From a virus, in the IMG/VR virus record IMGVR_UViG_3300027906_000188, positions 1 to 20,857 of that record: a DNA stretch of 20,857 bases. The stretch is one strand, 5' to 3'. Positions 3,389 to 14,840 of the stretch are shown in pieces; position 1 is the stretch's first letter, and each line of letters begins with the position of its first letter. The position numbers were made by a program, and so were the translations under genes. The notes under the pieces were generated by a model that saw nothing but the letters and a program-made list of their open reading frames with translations, searched no databases and was not told the origin of the DNA.

Positions 3389-6300
3389 ATGGCAATAGAT
3401 TTTCCAGGCAGCCCCTCGACAGGTCAAAGGCATAGTCATAACAATACAACCTGGGAATGGGACGGTTCTTCTTGGAATCGTATTACCATTGACTTGAGTA
3501 CTACTGATGCAACCACAGTCGTTGGATTAGCAGTAACTCAGTTTGTTAGAAGAGATGACGACAATATAATAACTGGTGTAACTACATTCATTGGTAATGG
3601 TTATACTGGTGTAGGAAACACTGTTCTAATAGTGGAAGGGGATGCTCGTGTCACGGGTGTCCTTTCTGTTGGTCAGGGTTCTGTATCAATTAATGAGAGA
3701 GATATATACGCAGTTGGTGTTGTAACAGGTGCAAACTTTAAGACTGGAACAACTAACGTACATAATGTTGGTGTAGAAGCAGCAGGAATTAATGTACTAG
3801 GTGCAGACACACCAATAGGTACAGGAGCAACAGTATATAATAGTGGTTTAATTGTAAGTAAGTCAGGAGCAGAATATCAAGGTGTCGTTACTGCAACAGA
3901 TAATCTTAATATTGTTACTGATAATAAGAAATTGCAAGTTGGAGCTGGGCAAGATTTAACCCTATATCATGACGGAAATAATAGTATTATAAAAAATGTT
4001 ACAGGTAATTTATATCTAAATGCAAATAATACACAAGCTGGCATATTATTAGTTGGATCTACAGGTGCGGTAACTTTATCTCATGGGGGTAATCTTAAGT
4101 TTGAAACTGAGGCAACTGGAGCTAAAGTCACTGGTGATTTAAATGTAACTGGACATATAGATGTAGCAGACAATGTAAGATTAAAACTTGGTACTCATGA
4201 TGATATTAATATCTATCATGATGGTACAAATTCATTCTTCGAAAATACAGGTGGACATCTTACAATACAGAATGATGTTGCAGGTGGAAATTTATATCTT
4301 AAAGGAAAGTCTGGAGAACATAGTATAATTTGTAATAGAGACGGGGCCGTTGAGATCTACCATGATAATGCAAAGAAGCTAGAAAGCACTAGCGGTGGAA
4401 TAAATGTTACTGGTAAGGCAATTATAGATGCTATAGATGTAACTGAGTTATCAAATGGTGCTACAACTAACGGTATCTTTCTTAATGCTGGTGATACTGG
4501 AGCAGGTAATAGACCTTATCTAGATATAAAAGGTGCTGGTTCTAGTGCGTTATCTGCTAAAGCAATAAAGATTTTCTACAATAATGGTTCTAATGAATCC
4601 TTCTTTGTTGATTATGAAGGAAATATTTCTGGAAGGGATATTAATGGAACTGGTGATTTAACTCTTACATCAACTGATGCTGGAAGTGCTGCTGGCCCAG
4701 AATTTAAACTCTATAGAAACAGTGCTTCACCTGCTGACGCAGATTACATTGGTCAATTAAAATTTGCTGGAGAAAGTGATACGGGTGTAGAGAGAAATTA
4801 TGCAAAGATAACAGGTAAGATATTAGATGCAAGTAACGGAACTGAAGATGGTATTCTTGAGTTTGCACATATTAAAGCAGGTTCACAAACAATCACAGGT
4901 AGATGGAGAAGTGATAGTTTACAATTATTAAATGGTACATCTTTAACTGTTGCTGGAACTTCAGAGTTTACAGGTGATGCTACCTTTAATGGTAATGTTT
5001 CTATTGGTAAGACATTAACATATGAAGACGTTAAGAATATAGATTCCGTTGGTGTTGTAACAGCAAGATCTGGTTTTGAAGTTACGTCTGGTACATTTAA
5101 AGCAAATAGTCAAGTAGGTGCTGCTGGTTCAGTTCTTTCTACTACTGGTTCTGGAATACATTGGGTATCACCATTAACAGGACCACAAGGTGCTCAAGGA
5201 CATCAAGGAGTTCAAGGTGCTCAAGGACATCAAGGACATCAAGGTGTTCAGGGTGCTCAAGGACATCAGGGTGTGCAAGGTGCTCAAGGAAGACAAGGTG
5301 CTGCTGGTGTTGCTGGTGCTCAAGGTGCTCAAGGTGCTACGGGTTCTAGTGGTGGTACTGGAGCACAAGGACATCAAGGAGTCCAAGGTGCTACAGGTTC
5401 TGGTGGATCAACAGGTTCTACTGGTGCTCAAGGACATCAAGGAGTCCAAGGTGCTACAGGTTCTGGTGGATCAACAGGTTCTACTGGTGCTCAAGGACAT
5501 CAAGGAGTTCAAGGTGCTGTAGGAGTATCAGTATCTAATAATGGAGACAATAGAGTAATAACTGGTGGTAGTGGAACCAATTTAAATGGTGAATCAACTT
5601 TAACTTATGATGGAACCACTTTCACCGTTCATGGGATGCAGATTCAAGATGCTGGACGAACGAATAACTTAAAATTTAAAGGTGGGACAGGTACAGATGT
5701 AGGACTTACTTTGTATAACTCAAGTAATACTTGGGTTGCTCAGATGTATGGAACGTCTTCAGGATATTATGGATTCTTAAATGCTAACTGGAACAGCTGG
5801 GATATAAAGAAGCAAGTTAATGGTCAAATGACACTACGAATTGGTAGTACTGAACAAACGGTTTGGCATTCAGGTAATTTTCCCTTTGATACATATTTAA
5901 ATCAGGGAGTCAAAAGTACTTCCAGTCCTACTTTTGTCAATGTTTACGCTAATGACTGGCTTAGAAATAACAATTCAGGAGAGGGTTTATACAACGAAAC
6001 ATCTCAAGGCCACTTTTATCAAGCAGGTGATAACTATTGGCATCTCAACGGTAAAAGCAGCGTAACAAATGGAGCTTTAATTCTTTATGGTGGTCATAAT
6101 AGTTCTCAAGGACATGCAACAGGTCGAAAGGGGTATCTTTATTGGGATTCAAGCGGGTTTGGACTGTTAGATAGTACGGGAAGTTGGGCTTTCAGAACTG
6201 ACGGTACTAATACACATATGGCAAGAGGTCATGTAAATGTTAGTAATAATGTAATCTGTGGTAATTGGTATTACAATAATGCTTCAGGGGAAGGATTATA

Positions 6301-6751
6301 TAACTCTGCGACTACTCAACATTGGTATTCCGATAGTGATGATTATTGGAACTTAGGGGGTGGAACTGGTGCTAATGGCATTATCTTCAGAGATGAACAC
6401 GGTGGAACGATTAGAGGATATTGCTACGCTAATAATAGTAATCAGATAGGATTTTTAAACTCAGGTGGTTCTTGGGCTTTTGCCGTTAATGGATCTACTA
6501 ATGTTATTACTTATCTTGATTTCATTCCTAGTACTGGTGGTAGTAAAGACTTAGGGAGTTCAAGCAATCGTTGGAGAACCATATATGTAAACGATTTAGA
6601 GTTATCAAATGAATCAAAGAAAGATGAAGGTGGTAATGATGTTGATGGAACTTGGGGTAATTGGACGCTCCAAGAAGGAGAAGGGGATATTTTTATGATA
6701 AATAATCGTAATGGTAAAAAGTATAAAATCGCTTTACAGGAGGTGAGTTAA
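3389..6751 (+). CDS. Collagen-like modular tail fibre
   Basis: This 1120-residue protein begins MAIDFPGSPSTGQRHSHNN...WEWDGSSWNR, an N-terminus I recognise from cyanophage fibres. Residues ~190-330 carry YHDGxNS...TGxLxI modules also found in the first fibre. Residues ~598-714 are 39 uninterrupted Gly-X-Y triplets, a collagen-like triple helix. Gln fills 24 of 39 Y positions and there is only one Pro. Residues ~865-1060 hold two copies of a ~100-residue module (EGLYNETSQGHFY and EGLYNSATTQHWY). The C-terminus contains DLGSSSNRWRTIYVNDLELS and ends GTWGNWTLQEGEGD...KKYKIALQEVS, typical of cyanophage fibre ends. It overlaps the next start by one base. A trimeric structural fibre for host contact is well supported; which tail position it occupies is not visible. 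Confidence 0.88.
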   Translation: MAIDFPGSPSTGQRHSHNNTTWEWDGSSWNRITIDLSTTDATTVVGLAVTQFVRRDDDNIITGVTTFIGNGYTGVGNTVLIVEGDARVTGVLSVGQGSVSINERDIYAVGVVTGANFKTGTTNVHNVGVEAAGINVLGADTPIGTGATVYNSGLIVSKSGAEYQGVVTATDNLNIVTDNKKLQVGAGQDLTLYHDGNNSIIKNVTGNLYLNANNTQAGILLVGSTGAVTLSHGGNLKFETEATGAKVTGDLNVTGHIDVADNVRLKLGTHDDINIYHDGTNSFFENTGGHLTIQNDVAGGNLYLKGKSGEHSIICNRDGAVEIYHDNAKKLESTSGGINVTGKAIIDAIDVTELSNGATTNGIFLNAGDTGAGNRPYLDIKGAGSSALSAKAIKIFYNNGSNESFFVDYEGNISGRDINGTGDLTLTSTDAGSAAGPEFKLYRNSASPADADYIGQLKFAGESDTGVERNYAKITGKILDASNGTEDGILEFAHIKAGSQTITGRWRSDSLQLLNGTSLTVAGTSEFTGDATFNGNVSIGKTLTYEDVKNIDSVGVVTARSGFEVTSGTFKANSQVGAAGSVLSTTGSGIHWVSPLTGPQGAQGHQGVQGAQGHQGHQGVQGAQGHQGVQGAQGRQGAAGVAGAQGAQGATGSSGGTGAQGHQGVQGATGSGGSTGSTGAQGHQGVQGATGSGGSTGSTGAQGHQGVQGAVGVSVSNNGDNRVITGGSGTNLNGESTLTYDGTTFTVHGMQIQDAGRTNNLKFKGGTGTDVGLTLYNSSNTWVAQMYGTSSGYYGFLNANWNSWDIKKQVNGQMTLRIGSTEQTVWHSGNFPFDTYLNQGVKSTSSPTFVNVYANDWLRNNNSGEGLYNETSQGHFYQAGDNYWHLNGKSSVTNGALILYGGHNSSQGHATGRKGYLYWDSSGFGLLDSTGSWAFRTDGTNTHMARGHVNVSNNVICGNWYYNNASGEGLYNSATTQHWYSDSDDYWNLGGGTGANGIIFRDEHGGTIRGYCYANNSNQIGFLNSGGSWAFAVNGSTNVITYLDFIPSTGGSKDLGSSSNRWRTIYVNDLELSNESKKDEGGNDVDGTWGNWTLQEGEGDIFMINNRNGKKYKIALQEVS
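4996..5028 (+). repeat. 33-bp direct repeat shared with first fibre gene, copy 2
   Basis: Identical to bases 13-45 and in the same coding frame (SIGKTLTYED). In this gene it comes about 150 bases before the collagen-like segment. Confidence 0.85.
5180..5530 (+). repeat. Collagen-like repeat region with 63-bp tandem units
   Basis: The region is 39 Gly-X-Y codon triplets built from GCT-CAA-GGA and CAT-CAA-GGA units. From 5360 a 63-base unit (GAQGHQGVQGATGSGGSTGST) is present in two near-identical copies, 5360-5422 and 5423-5485; a third copy, from 5486, breaks off after about 30 bases. The near-identity suggests recent slippage or unequal recombination, so copy number is likely to vary between isolates. 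The other long open frames here, on both strands, are by-products of the repeat. Confidence 0.9.
6738..6747 (+). promoter_or_regulatory. Strong Shine-Dalgarno site before the 6751 gene
   Basis: AGGAGGTGAG ends three bases before the ATG at 6751, giving 7 bases between AGGAGG and the start. It is the strongest such site in the window. It lies inside the end of the fibre gene, so the two genes are translationally coupled (TAATG overlap). Confidence 0.8.
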
Positions 6752-13501: not shown

Positions 13502-13851
13502 CAGTCGCACAAGAAAAGGAATTAAAAAAACCTGAGAAGAAAGAACCAATATGGACAACTGAAGAGAGGCAAACCAGTAAAGAAAAGTATGGGTGTGAAG
13601 TTCTTATAGAGGATGGTTCTATTGAAGATGTCTCTATAAAAAAAGCACCTAGTGATTCTTATATCATTCGTTACTCTTATAAAGATAAGGAACGTATCGA
13701 TTTAACTAGAGGTTCAAGAGTAACTCTGTTTGATATGTACTGGGATAAGTTTAAGGGTGGTATAAAATCCATTGAGTATGGTATGGGTACAATCAAACCA
13801 AACCTCTGGGGTTATCAATCACCTGCTACCAAAAAGAAAAAGCGAAAGTAG
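13498..13851 (+). CDS. Conserved hypothetical protein, basic C-terminus
   Basis: This 117-residue protein starts at an ATGA overlap with the DUF6433-like gene, so the two are probably translated together. Residues 1-30 are charged and Lys/Glu-rich. The middle (SYIIRYSYKDKERIDLTRGSRVTLFDMYWDKFK) reads as beta strands plus a helix. GTIKPNLWGYQSP follows, then a terminal basic run KKKKRK. I do not recognise a family. The basic tail could bind nucleic acid, but that is a guess. It is the last gene before the regulatory island. Confidence 0.7.
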   Translation: MTVAQEKELKKPEKKEPIWTTEERQTSKEKYGCEVLIEDGSIEDVSIKKAPSDSYIIRYSYKDKERIDLTRGSRVTLFDMYWDKFKGGIKSIEYGMGTIKPNLWGYQSPATKKKKRK

Positions 13852-13960
13852 TTTCAAATATAACGCAAAAAAAACTCCGACATTTTTTTCGTATGTGAGG
13901 ATTTGTAACAATTTTGTAAACCTACTTGCATATATACTATACATGTGTTAGTATTAACAC
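13852..13960 (+). other. Non-coding leader region upstream of the tandem aptamers
   Basis: About 110 bases hold no convincing gene. It contains an A-run (13867-13874) and a T-run (13882-13889) around CTCCGAC, which could fold as a weak A-T hairpin. The most plausible promoter is TTGTAA (13914-13919), 18 bases, TATACA (13938-13943), which would start transcription just before the first aptamer. Confidence 0.6.
13914..13943 (+). promoter_or_regulatory. Possible sigma-70 promoter for the riboswitch leader
   Basis: TTGTAA and TATACA are separated by 18 bases; both hexamers are imperfect. Predicted initiation is near 13950, which places both aptamers entirely in the 5' leader of the 14089 gene. 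TATACT at 13933-13938 overlaps and is an alternative -10 with no good -35. Confidence 0.4.
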
Positions 13961-14012
13961 AATCGTTCATCCTGATACATTCAGGACGCAAGTAAGCCGA
14001 CTCGGAACGGAT
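13961..14012 (+). ncRNA. Glutamine riboswitch-like aptamer 1 (glnA/Downstream-peptide type)
   Basis: The segment matches the pattern I know for glutamine-binding glnA and Downstream-peptide RNAs of cyanobacteria and cyanophages. P1 is CGTTC (13964-13968) with GAACG (14005-14009). A hairpin CCTGA-TACAT-TCAGG follows (13971-13985), then the conserved ACGCAAGTAAGCCGA stretch leading into GGAACG. These aptamers bind L-glutamine and control downstream genes, and the Downstream-peptide class typically precedes short reading frames, as here. The identification is by eye; a covariance-model search would settle it. Confidence 0.8.
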
Positions 14013-14058
14013 TCGTTCATCTCTTTCGGGAGACGCAAAAGCCGACTAAAGGAACGGA
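14011..14058 (+). ncRNA. Glutamine riboswitch-like aptamer 2, in tandem
   Basis: This second copy begins immediately after the first. P1 is CGTTC (14014-14018) with GAACG (14052-14056). The hairpin is TCTC (14020-14023), loop TTTCGG, then GAGA (14030-14033). The conserved core ACGCAAAAGCCGACTAAAGGAACGG is slightly shorter than in copy 1. The sequences differ in the hairpin but keep the pairing, which supports selection on structure. It ends about 30 bases before the ATG at 14089. GGAG (14078-14081), the likely ribosome binding site, sits in the loop of a small CTTT/AAAG hairpin. Confidence 0.78.
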
Positions 14059-14088
14059 GTAAAATCCCTACTACTTTGGAGAAAGCCA

Positions 14089-14232
14089 ATGGCAAAAGTC
14101 ACTTATCGTGGACACGAATACGATACAAATGAGTATCGTAGAGCTCTTATCGAAGAGCATAACCAAGTAAGAAATCACGATCTAATGTATCGTGGTATCA
14201 AGGTTAGAAGCAAGGCAGTCCCTTGTTCTTAA
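14089..14232 (+). CDS. 47-residue YRG-motif peptide (DUF4278-like)
   Basis: A short basic peptide is read from ATG 14089 to TAA 14232, behind GGAG at 14078-14081. It has two Tyr-Arg-Gly motifs, TYRGHEYD (residues 5-12) and MYRGIKV (residues 33-39), as in DUF4278 proteins of cyanobacteria and their phages. An Arg/Glu-rich helix (EYRRALIEEHNQVRNH) lies between them. There is no signal or membrane segment. It is the only gene between the tandem glutamine aptamers and an intrinsic terminator, so it appears to form its own glutamine-controlled transcript. Glutamine control suggests a role in the nitrogen state of the infected cell, perhaps as a small regulator of a host enzyme. That function is inference. 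Confidence 0.8.
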   Translation: MAKVTYRGHEYDTNEYRRALIEEHNQVRNHDLMYRGIKVRSKAVPCS

Positions 14233-14255
14233 GTCCAAGAACTTAATATCAATTG

Positions 14256-14281
14256 AGGAGGGTTGTTACCCTCCTTTTTTT
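14256..14281 (+). terminator. Intrinsic terminator
   Basis: GGAGGGT (14257-14263), loop TGTT, ACCCTCC (14268-14274), then seven T residues (14275-14281). It is a GC-rich perfect stem, conspicuous in this AT-rich DNA, placed 24 bases after the stop of the 47-residue peptide gene. It ends the riboswitch-controlled transcript and shares bases with the promoter of the next gene. Confidence 0.92.
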
Positions 14282-14297: not shown

Positions 14298-14840
14298 ATG
14301 GAATTATTTAATAGTTGGCAATGGCAAAAGGGAGAAATTCCTGATGAGATATGTGATTATATTATTAATAATATAGATGATAATTTATATAAAAAAGGTG
14401 AAGTAGCAAATAGTAAGTTAAAGTCTGCAAGAAATGTAAATATACAAACCACTAATATCAATTGGATAAATGCATTACTTGGTGGTTATATAAGGTATGC
14501 TAATTCTAAAAATTTTAATTACAATTTATCGGATAATGATATAGAATCAGCACAGATTTCTAAGTATTCTGTAGGTGAATATTATGGTGAGCATATGGAT
14601 TTTGGAAAGGATGATAATCTAACAAGAAAGTTAAGTCTAACTGTTCAACTTTCGGATGAAAATGATTATGAAGGAGGGGATCTTATATTTTACACTGGTT
14701 CTAATAGAGAAAAATCTTCTAGAGGTAAAGGAAGTGTTATTGTTTTTGATAGTAGATTGTATCATGAAATAACTCCCGTCACTAAAGGTGTGAGATATTC
14801 TTTGGTTAAATGGTATCATGGAGATGTACCATTGAAATAA
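14298..14840 (+). CDS. Prolyl-4-hydroxylase-like 2OG-Fe(II) oxygenase
   Basis: The 180-residue product is read from ATG 14298; an earlier in-frame start at 14253 would run through the terminator. It resembles P4H/PKHD-type oxygenases: ISKYSVGEYYGEHMDFG with H99-x-D101, KLSLTVQLSDENDYEGGDLIFY, GSVIVFDSRLYHEITPV with distal His156, and GVRYSLVKWYHG with Arg166. All ligands for iron and 2-oxoglutarate are present. The known family reaction is hydroxylation of amino-acid side chains, often Pro, in proteins; the substrate here is unknown. Cyanophages commonly carry such genes. It has its own promoter and no visible ribosome binding site, consistent with a leaderless transcript. Confidence 0.87.
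   Translation: MELFNSWQWQKGEIPDEICDYIINNIDDNLYKKGEVANSKLKSARNVNIQTTNINWINALLGGYIRYANSKNFNYNLSDNDIESAQISKYSVGEYYGEHMDFGKDDNLTRKLSLTVQLSDENDYEGGDLIFYTGSNREKSSRGKGSVIVFDSRLYHEITPVTKGVRYSLVKWYHGDVPLK

Follow-up and report, generated by a model that had tools for sequence, protein, structure and literature searches.

A predicted composite glutamine aptamer upstream of a stand-alone DUF4278 gene in a marine cyanophage

The closest described systems to the locus reported here are the glutamine riboswitches of cyanobacteria. The type-1 riboswitch (Rfam RF01739), as found in Synechocystis gifB, is built from a CGUUC/GAACG P1, a P2 hairpin, an AAGUA core, a P3 helix and the element RAAGGAACG; it lies upstream of a DUF4278 gene, and a translational ON mechanism has been proposed for it. 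The type-2 motif (RF01704, Downstream-peptide), exemplified by the Yfr6 leader, is found 5' of short ORFs in marine picocyanobacteria. According to the available portions of PMC6316151, DUF4278 genes are the main associates of cyanobacterial glutamine aptamers, and DUF4278 forms the N-terminus of the glutamine-synthetase inactivating factor IF17 (GifB), where it is disposable for IF17 function, yet promotes stability. The same portions present Prochlorococcus PMM1846, known here from its description in a review, as a 7-kDa stand-alone DUF4278 protein with a glutamine riboswitch in its 5' UTR and an NtcA motif in its promoter. Among phages, glutamine riboswitches in T4-like cyanophages have been mentioned in print (available excerpts of PMC9602691 and PMC9964418), and AG-345-P14, whose homologue is H3 in our set, has been named as having one (PMC9004378). 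More generally, cyanophage genomes are known to contain NtcA sites (excerpts of PMC3037559).

The window analyzed here is the whole 20,857-nucleotide stretch of IMG/VR record IMGVR_UViG_3300027906_000188, and it comes from a marine cyanophage. Its gene of interest is of a known kind, since the pairing of a riboswitch with DUF4278 is already established in cyanobacteria; the phage member is new. The gene is delimited by the following features.

14089-14232, plus strand: coding sequence of a 47-residue DUF4278 protein, phrog_5049 (ORF list, Pfam and phrog match).
14078-14081, plus strand: Shine-Dalgarno GGAG, seven bases 5' of the ATG at 14089 (from the sequence).
14255-14276, plus strand: intrinsic terminator-like stem-loop of 9 pairs, then a T run (terminator scan).

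The ORF has an ATG start and 47 codons, and no other gene lies between the glutamine-aptamer sequence and the terminator. A preliminary description of this DNA had presented it as the sole gene in that interval and as a dedicated, separately terminated gene under glutamine-aptamer control, and our analysis bears this out: the ORF is real, with homologues of this short type in 60 phage records (tblastn), an aptamer on its 5' side and the terminator on its 3' side. The same description spoke of a small basic peptide with two YRG motifs, in agreement with the computed pI of 9.4 and with motifs at residues 6-8 and 34-36. The 5' neighbor is a phrog_485 gene ending at 13851, and the gene is followed by genes for a 2OG-Fe(II) oxygenase, ThyX and PhoH, in that order. 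The oxygenase gene (14301-14840; PF13640, E 2.4e-16) comes directly after the terminator. Elsewhere in the window, positions 3389-6751 are occupied by a large tail-fibre-like ORF with a collagen-like stretch and GAQGHQG-type repeats.

Residues 4-37 of the protein match Pfam DUF4278 (PF14105) with 23.9 bits (E 5.5e-5), a score that does not reach the curated cut-off of 25.3, and on this basis we file the protein as a divergent DUF4278 relative instead of a cut-off member. A relative with the same arrangement scores 28.8 bits against PF14105; the window protein itself matches phrog_5049 at 2e-18, and 45 of the 46 phage relatives in an alignment match DUF4278 with E no greater than 0.01. The paired YRG motifs (Y6 R7 G8 and Y34 R35 G36) are invariant in all 46 aligned sequences. 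Judged by these comparisons, the phage protein is a stand-alone DUF4278, with almost nothing outside that domain. In this it resembles PMM1846, and differs from it, as that protein is described, in being phage-borne, in being shorter (47 residues) and in having a degenerate NtcA box. A sequence search of the PDB returned no relative of the 47-residue protein (best E 1.2, unrelated), and a structure model (pLDDT 71, pTM 0.33) that suggests a beta hairpin, a helix and strands was too weak for a fold search.

The leader upstream of the gene resembles both described aptamer types. In a 451-base search whose matches had E between 1e-5 and 9e-4, the Glutamine-II model (RF01704) matched 13961-14016 with 30.6 bits, a segment on which the glnA model (RF01739) scored 27.0 bits, and RF01739 matched 14012-14060 with 32.0 bits. 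The window thus has no Rfam match at gathering, which stands at 33 for RF01704 and 35 for RF01739. Some relatives do pass: L003 (35.4), L004 (37.8) and L019 (35.9) lie above the RF01739 score, and L004 (33.0) and L013 (33.1) reach that of RF01704. The first half of the leader holds the core CGCAAGUA, without RAAG before GGAACG, and the second half holds RAAGGAACG, without GUA after CGCAA.

These halves had been described as tandem aptamers, a point on which we differ: covariation in 251 distinct leaders indicates that they are probably not two independent copies and form one composite aptamer. Its P1 would consist of the first 5' strand and the last 3' strand, its P3 would be common to both halves, and the inner hairpin and second P2 would make up a permuted second junction. 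The predicted elements are as follows.

13964-13968, plus strand: outer P1 5' strand CGUUC (Rfam matches; paired by RNAalifold with 14052-14056).
13970-13986, plus strand: P2a hairpin, the first ORF slot in relatives and a hairpin only in the window (first pair UA, AU, CG or GC in 42 of 42 relatives).
13987-13994, plus strand: core CGCAAGUA (invariant in the 42-leader alignment).
13995-14002, plus strand: 5' strand of the shared P3, AGCCGACU (covariation between halves; partner 14040-14047).
14005-14018, plus strand: inner hairpin GAACG-GAUU-CGUUC, the inner, permuted P1 (RNAalifold; compensated variant).
14020-14033, plus strand: P2b hairpin, the second ORF slot in relatives and a hairpin only in the window (ORF here in 194 of 251 leaders).
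14040-14047, plus strand: 3' strand of the shared P3, AGCCGACU (covariation between halves).
14052-14056, plus strand: outer P1 3' strand GAACG (Rfam matches; paired by RNAalifold with 13964-13968).

Applied to 42 leaders without an ORF, RNAalifold joined the outermost strands, first CGUUC and last GAACG, to each other and, between them, the middle GAACG to the middle CGUUC. The helix that separates the composite from tandem aptamers is P3: in it, the first-half stretch that follows GUA pairs with the second-half stretch that precedes RAAGG, for example as AGUCG:CGACU, AGUCA:UGACU, AAUCG:CGAUU or GGUCG:CGACU. Over the 32 distinct segment pairs of the 251 leaders, the summed duplex energy of this cross-half P3 was 137.7 against a shuffled mean of 98.5, a value reached by 0 of 2000 shuffles; an earlier pass over 29 pairs had given 123.9 against 93.8, again with 0 of 2000 shuffles as high. 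The long-range pair between alignment columns 70 and 116 is UA in 19, AU in 12 and GC in 2 of 33 rows and unpaired in none, and at the same position the AGCCGAC-type leaders have T/A in 82 cases, A/T in 19, G/C in 2 and other letters in 3. Two other P3 positions are often unpaired (33 of 42 and 19 of 35) because the long type, the window included, has A-C mismatches; P3 of the window itself has 6 of 8 standard pairs and two A-C mismatches. In S-N03, the Rfam type-1 model aligned across the whole composite with 31.6 bits, with 52 bases inserted in P3.

The composite has the P1, P2, P3 order and the conserved core of RF01739, and covariation supports our reading of the RNA as a novel form of glutamine riboswitch. 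It departs from RF01739 in that P3 is opened around a permuted second junction, in the sub-gathering score of the window and in the use of the P2 loops of relatives as ORF slots. The likeness of the first half to type 2 (30.6 bits) falls below gathering, and the shared P3 and the type-1 order fit the phage RNA better. If the composite fold is correct, it is an aptamer architecture that Rfam models render as two partial matches or miss. In the open-licence literature that we searched, we met neither the composite fold nor P2-framed protein genes.

We also asked how such a leader might act on the gene. Two elements form the candidate expression platform.

14046-14051, plus strand: CUAAAG, joiner of P3 and P1 in the aptamer and alternative partner of the Shine-Dalgarno side (covariation).
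14074-14079, plus strand: CUUUGG, which would form the 3' side of the OFF helix and includes the first GG of the Shine-Dalgarno (fold and covariation).

They are paired with each other in the minimum-energy fold of the window. Both elements are present in 216 of the 248 leaders that have a DUF4278 start. When the core letter is A the partner is U in all 85 leaders and C in none; when it is G the partner is C in 64 of 131 and U in 67 (Fisher 4e-18, relatedness ignored). Stratifying by protein type and by ORF presence, we found no A-C case among the 216 leaders. In a tree-aware version of the test, about 6.3 of 11 independent pairs changed together and none oppositely (median p 0.03). This covarying helix between the aptamer core and the Shine-Dalgarno side is likely the OFF state. 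Folding calculations support it weakly: its probability averages 0.36 in 50 leaders without an ORF, and predicted Shine-Dalgarno openness goes from 0.40 to 0.43 when P1 is closed, with the expected direction in 31 of the 50. Constraints on P1 alone, as forced P1 states, gave no rise in Shine-Dalgarno access. A different candidate platform, a short GGN..NCC hairpin following P1, was dropped because its first strand lacks a local CC-side 3-pair partner in several leaders, for example GGAUUAAAACCCC.

Signals for separate transcription were sought on both sides of the gene, and those upstream of the aptamer are these.

13926-13931 and 13949-13954, plus strand: -35-like TTGCAT and TAGTAT with a 17-base spacer (family promoter position).
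13944-13961, plus strand: palindrome TGTGTTAGTATTAACACA over the -10 position (family-wide symmetry count).

The family promoter consensus is TTGACT-17-TATAAT, with TTGACT in 109 and TTGACA in 28 of 207 upstream regions and a spacer of 17 in 157. Its -10 element ends 7-9 bases before CGUUC (CGTTC in DNA) in 179 of the 207 distinct upstreams. The window copy is weak (7 of 12), and the pair was not listed by the scan that gave the terminator at 14255-14276. Of 202 distinct upstream regions, 158 have palindrome arms of at least 6 bases, compared with 50 of 1010 shuffled sequences. The symmetry is kept while the letters change, as in GTGTTA..TAACAC, GGTCTATAATAGACC and GGTATGCTAACATACC. In 96 of the 207 upstreams an NtcA box, GTAN8TAC, stands 44-62 bases ahead of the aptamer, against a shuffled mean of 1.7 (at most 6 in 200 shuffles); eight other spacers gave 0-9 and eight other triplets 0-5. 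The window lacks GTAN8TAC and has a degenerate box. On the 3' side, a terminator-like site within 150 bases of the gene was found in 189 of the 212 leaders with enough sequence, with 3 more cut, compared with 2 of 600 shuffles.

Many relatives of the window carry an ORF inside the aptamer. We classified 251 of the 255 composite-pattern matches, counting each leader sequence once: 51 have no nested ORF, 170 have one in P2b only, 24 in both P2a and P2b and 5 in P2a only, and 1 is long without an ORF. Nested ORFs are thus present in 199 of the 251 leaders, at P2b in 194 and at P2a in 29, with two in 24. Neither P2 loop of the window holds one. The ORFs are about 50-70 codons long and lie in the P2 loop, with the start codon usually in the stem, at the 5' strand of P2, and the stop at the opposite P2 strand or in the aptamer core. 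Among 101 leaders examined earlier, the P2b ORF stopped at one fixed place in the core in 94 leaders, immediately ahead of the core in 4 and elsewhere in 3. Leaders with a P2a ORF (L029, L034, L041, L015 and 25 others) often have the stop in the 3' strand of P2a or as the UAA of AAGUAA in the core.

The P2 strands pair across these ORFs: although 138-203 bases apart, they form 400 contiguous pairs in 69 distinct combinations against 316.9, and 0 of 10,000 shuffles matched the pairing of strands with their own partners. P2a stems that hold an ORF are weaker, with 3 contiguous pairs in 12 of 29. The ORFs themselves are under coding constraint (pN/pS 0.36, with pN below pS in 28 of 28 disjoint pairs). 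Their products match phrog_504, phrog_13397 or phrog_6471, families with no assigned function, or nothing, and relatives of phrog_13397 occur in either slot (P2a in L045, P2b in L131). Genome annotations of isolates list them as small hypothetical genes immediately 5' of the DUF4278 gene. The nested proteins are acidic (pI 5.1 or less in 72 of 75 non-redundant sequences), and the DUF4278 proteins are basic (pI above 8 in 71 of 76, one of the 76 being a misread start). A model of a nested protein (pLDDT 76, pTM 0.53) suggests a helical hairpin with a cysteine near each end and was, like that of the DUF4278 protein, too weak to search with. In a tree of 134 DUF4278 genes, poorly resolved with its 141 columns for 134 rows, the P2b ORF comes or goes at least 24 times, and supported branches force 11 of these changes. 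The five rows nearest to the window all have a P2b ORF, and for this reason we believe that the window has probably lost its own.

For a translated ORF inside an aptamer we found one experimental precedent, uMetE2 in the metE B12 riboswitch of M. tuberculosis, which according to excerpts of PMC11260477 is translated and alters expression of the downstream gene; excerpts of PMC12810186 describe a uORF downstream of Mbox. As given there, uMetE2 is a short ORF with a TTG start in one leader, whereas most of the phage relatives encode conserved proteins of about 50-70 codons, framed by P2, in up to two slots. We can imagine that T4-like cyanophages use the glutamine riboswitch as a gene chassis, although we would stop a little short of calling this probable. 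The junctions would be fused via the shared P3 and the P2 loops would be interchangeable slots; in many leaders ligand binding and ribosome transit would exclude each other, and glutamine would pick either the acidic nested protein or the basic DUF4278 protein from one message, with the window as a stripped form. Given the composite fold, nested ORFs would make the coupling of ligand sensing and ribosome transit testable in one small RNA. The arrangement also provides an annotated home for the orphan phage families phrog_504, 13397, 6471, 5049 and 545.

The locus as a whole is best explained, in our view, as a phage regulatory gene with transcription of its own. A sigma-70 promoter of the host type, with an NtcA box in many relatives, would start the message at or near the aptamer, and the leader would fold as one composite type-1 glutamine aptamer, with outer P1, P2a, core and P3 around a permuted second junction. 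With no ligand, CUAAAG and CUUUGG would pair and cover the Shine-Dalgarno; glutamine would keep CUAAAG and GAACG in the aptamer, leaving the Shine-Dalgarno free and DUF4278 translation ON. The gene, its family, the terminator, the composite base pairing and the covariation of the OFF helix are supported by sequence; glutamine binding, the ON direction and the protein target we infer. This explanation, composite aptamer and OFF-helix translational switch together, seems to us fairly probable.

Two independent tandem aptamers, one type-2-like and one type-1-like, acting cooperatively on the peptide would agree with the two separate Rfam matches in the window and with the tandem glnA RNAs reported in the available part of PMC2864571. 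The P1 and P2 of such a structure pair in nearly all relatives (95.9% of cells, P3 left aside), a high count, given that P1 shows no variation and that both models include P2. P1 strands, being nearly invariant, cannot separate the two models, one variant lineage aside. This lineage, the only one with P1 strand variants (L162 is unplaced), appears to comprise L142, L294 and L300, which have CAACG..CGUUG in the middle and unchanged outer strands and so retain all 10 of the composite pairs but 8 of the 10 tandem ones; L287, cut upstream and represented by its inner part only, has the same inner 5' strand CAACG. The local P3 stems of the tandem structure fail in nearly half of the informative leaders (outer pair unpaired in 15 of 34 and 14 of 33), whereas the cross-half P3 covaries, and each core half is complete only in the composite, RAAG and GUA being split between the halves. 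Without ligand, moreover, 48 of 49 leaders favor a hairpin between the halves to tandem P1s imposed on the fold. We find the tandem arrangement unlikely. To a similar degree we doubt that the RNA fold was kept while glutamine binding was lost, or that another ligand or ribosome transit through nested ORFs is sensed, which would place the peptide outside nitrogen control. The core CGCAAGUA in place of the Rfam consensus CGGAAGUA, the sub-gathering score of the window and the disturbance that ribosomes would cause where ORFs are nested in the aptamer all speak for this reading, but relatives L003, L004 and L019 exceed the gathering score, and the association with DUF4278 and NtcA boxes is conserved.

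A further alternative concerns the function of the protein: on the model of IF7/IF17, it might inhibit host glutamine synthetase directly. The preliminary description had pointed, as an analogy, to the small nitrogen proteins under glutamine-riboswitch control in cyanobacteria, and had suggested that the peptide could act on a host nitrogen enzyme. The analogy is right and becomes more specific, the peptide being a DUF4278 protein, the main associate of those riboswitches in the available portions of PMC6316151. The same source places DUF4278 at the IF17 N-terminus and discusses riboswitch-controlled PMM1846 as a possible inactivating factor, and the phage protein is basic and arginine-rich, all of which would suit an inhibitor. 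But the enzyme-inhibitor reading loses its main support because the IF17 N-terminus is reported there as disposable. By the IF17 layout in those portions, the inhibitory C-terminal part is absent from the 47 residues of the phage protein, and there is no room for it because the protein is almost all DUF4278 (residues 4-37). The sequence search of the PDB, too, gave no relative of it. We consider direct inhibition of glutamine synthetase quite improbable. Our leading, still tentative, suggestion is a host-derived small adaptor that, at high glutamine, would modulate a partner from nitrogen assimilation or of the PII type. At issue is the role of the lone DUF4278 domain, which cyanophages commonly carry with nitrogen-type control signals of its own.

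The DUF4278 gene is common in T4-like cyanophages, usually with its own promoter and terminator. Besides the 60 records with the short type, a 55-residue type has homologues in 375 phage records (tblastn), possibly overlapping with those 60; relatives of PhoH in 492 records, phages of other hosts included, serve as a rough denominator. Isolates carry the gene in one of two places, between nrdB and talC or, as in the window, 5' of thyX and phoH. All 18 phage representatives drawn from the 60 short-type records have the DUF4278 ORF downstream of the leader, which is short in 4 and holds a nested ORF in 14.

The locus was recovered from three starting points, whose sets (picked by aptamer, by DUF4278 protein and by nested protein) share contigs and are not independent samples. 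A pattern of the 3' part of the first aptamer plus the junction picked at least 120 IMG/VR loci. Among the 120 matches listed, 117 have the second aptamer half, and 114 of those 117 have the YRG ORF directly 3', the other 3 hitting a contig end; again among the matches listed, 30 have a short second P2 and 87 a long insert with an ORF, and the remaining 3 are two short ones with a variant core and one at a contig end. When the DUF4278 protein alone served to choose 80 loci, a regular expression matched the paired aptamer sequence in 71 (43 with a nested ORF, 28 without); 2 more have a one-base core variant recognized by eye (L173, L208), and the other 7 are cut by contig ends. The nested protein picked 80 loci, all of which lie between aptamer halves: 76 are exact, 3 have the changed inner strand of the CAACG lineage and 1 a changed core. 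Two contigs with the cyanophage locus are filed under other organisms, L141 in a MAG named Euryarchaeota and L142 in one named Saprospiraceae, presumably through contamination or mis-binning. In L010 (2703-2897, 141.7 bits) and L013 (2669-2854, 188 bits), a manA RNA lies directly 3' of the DUF4278 gene, before talC.
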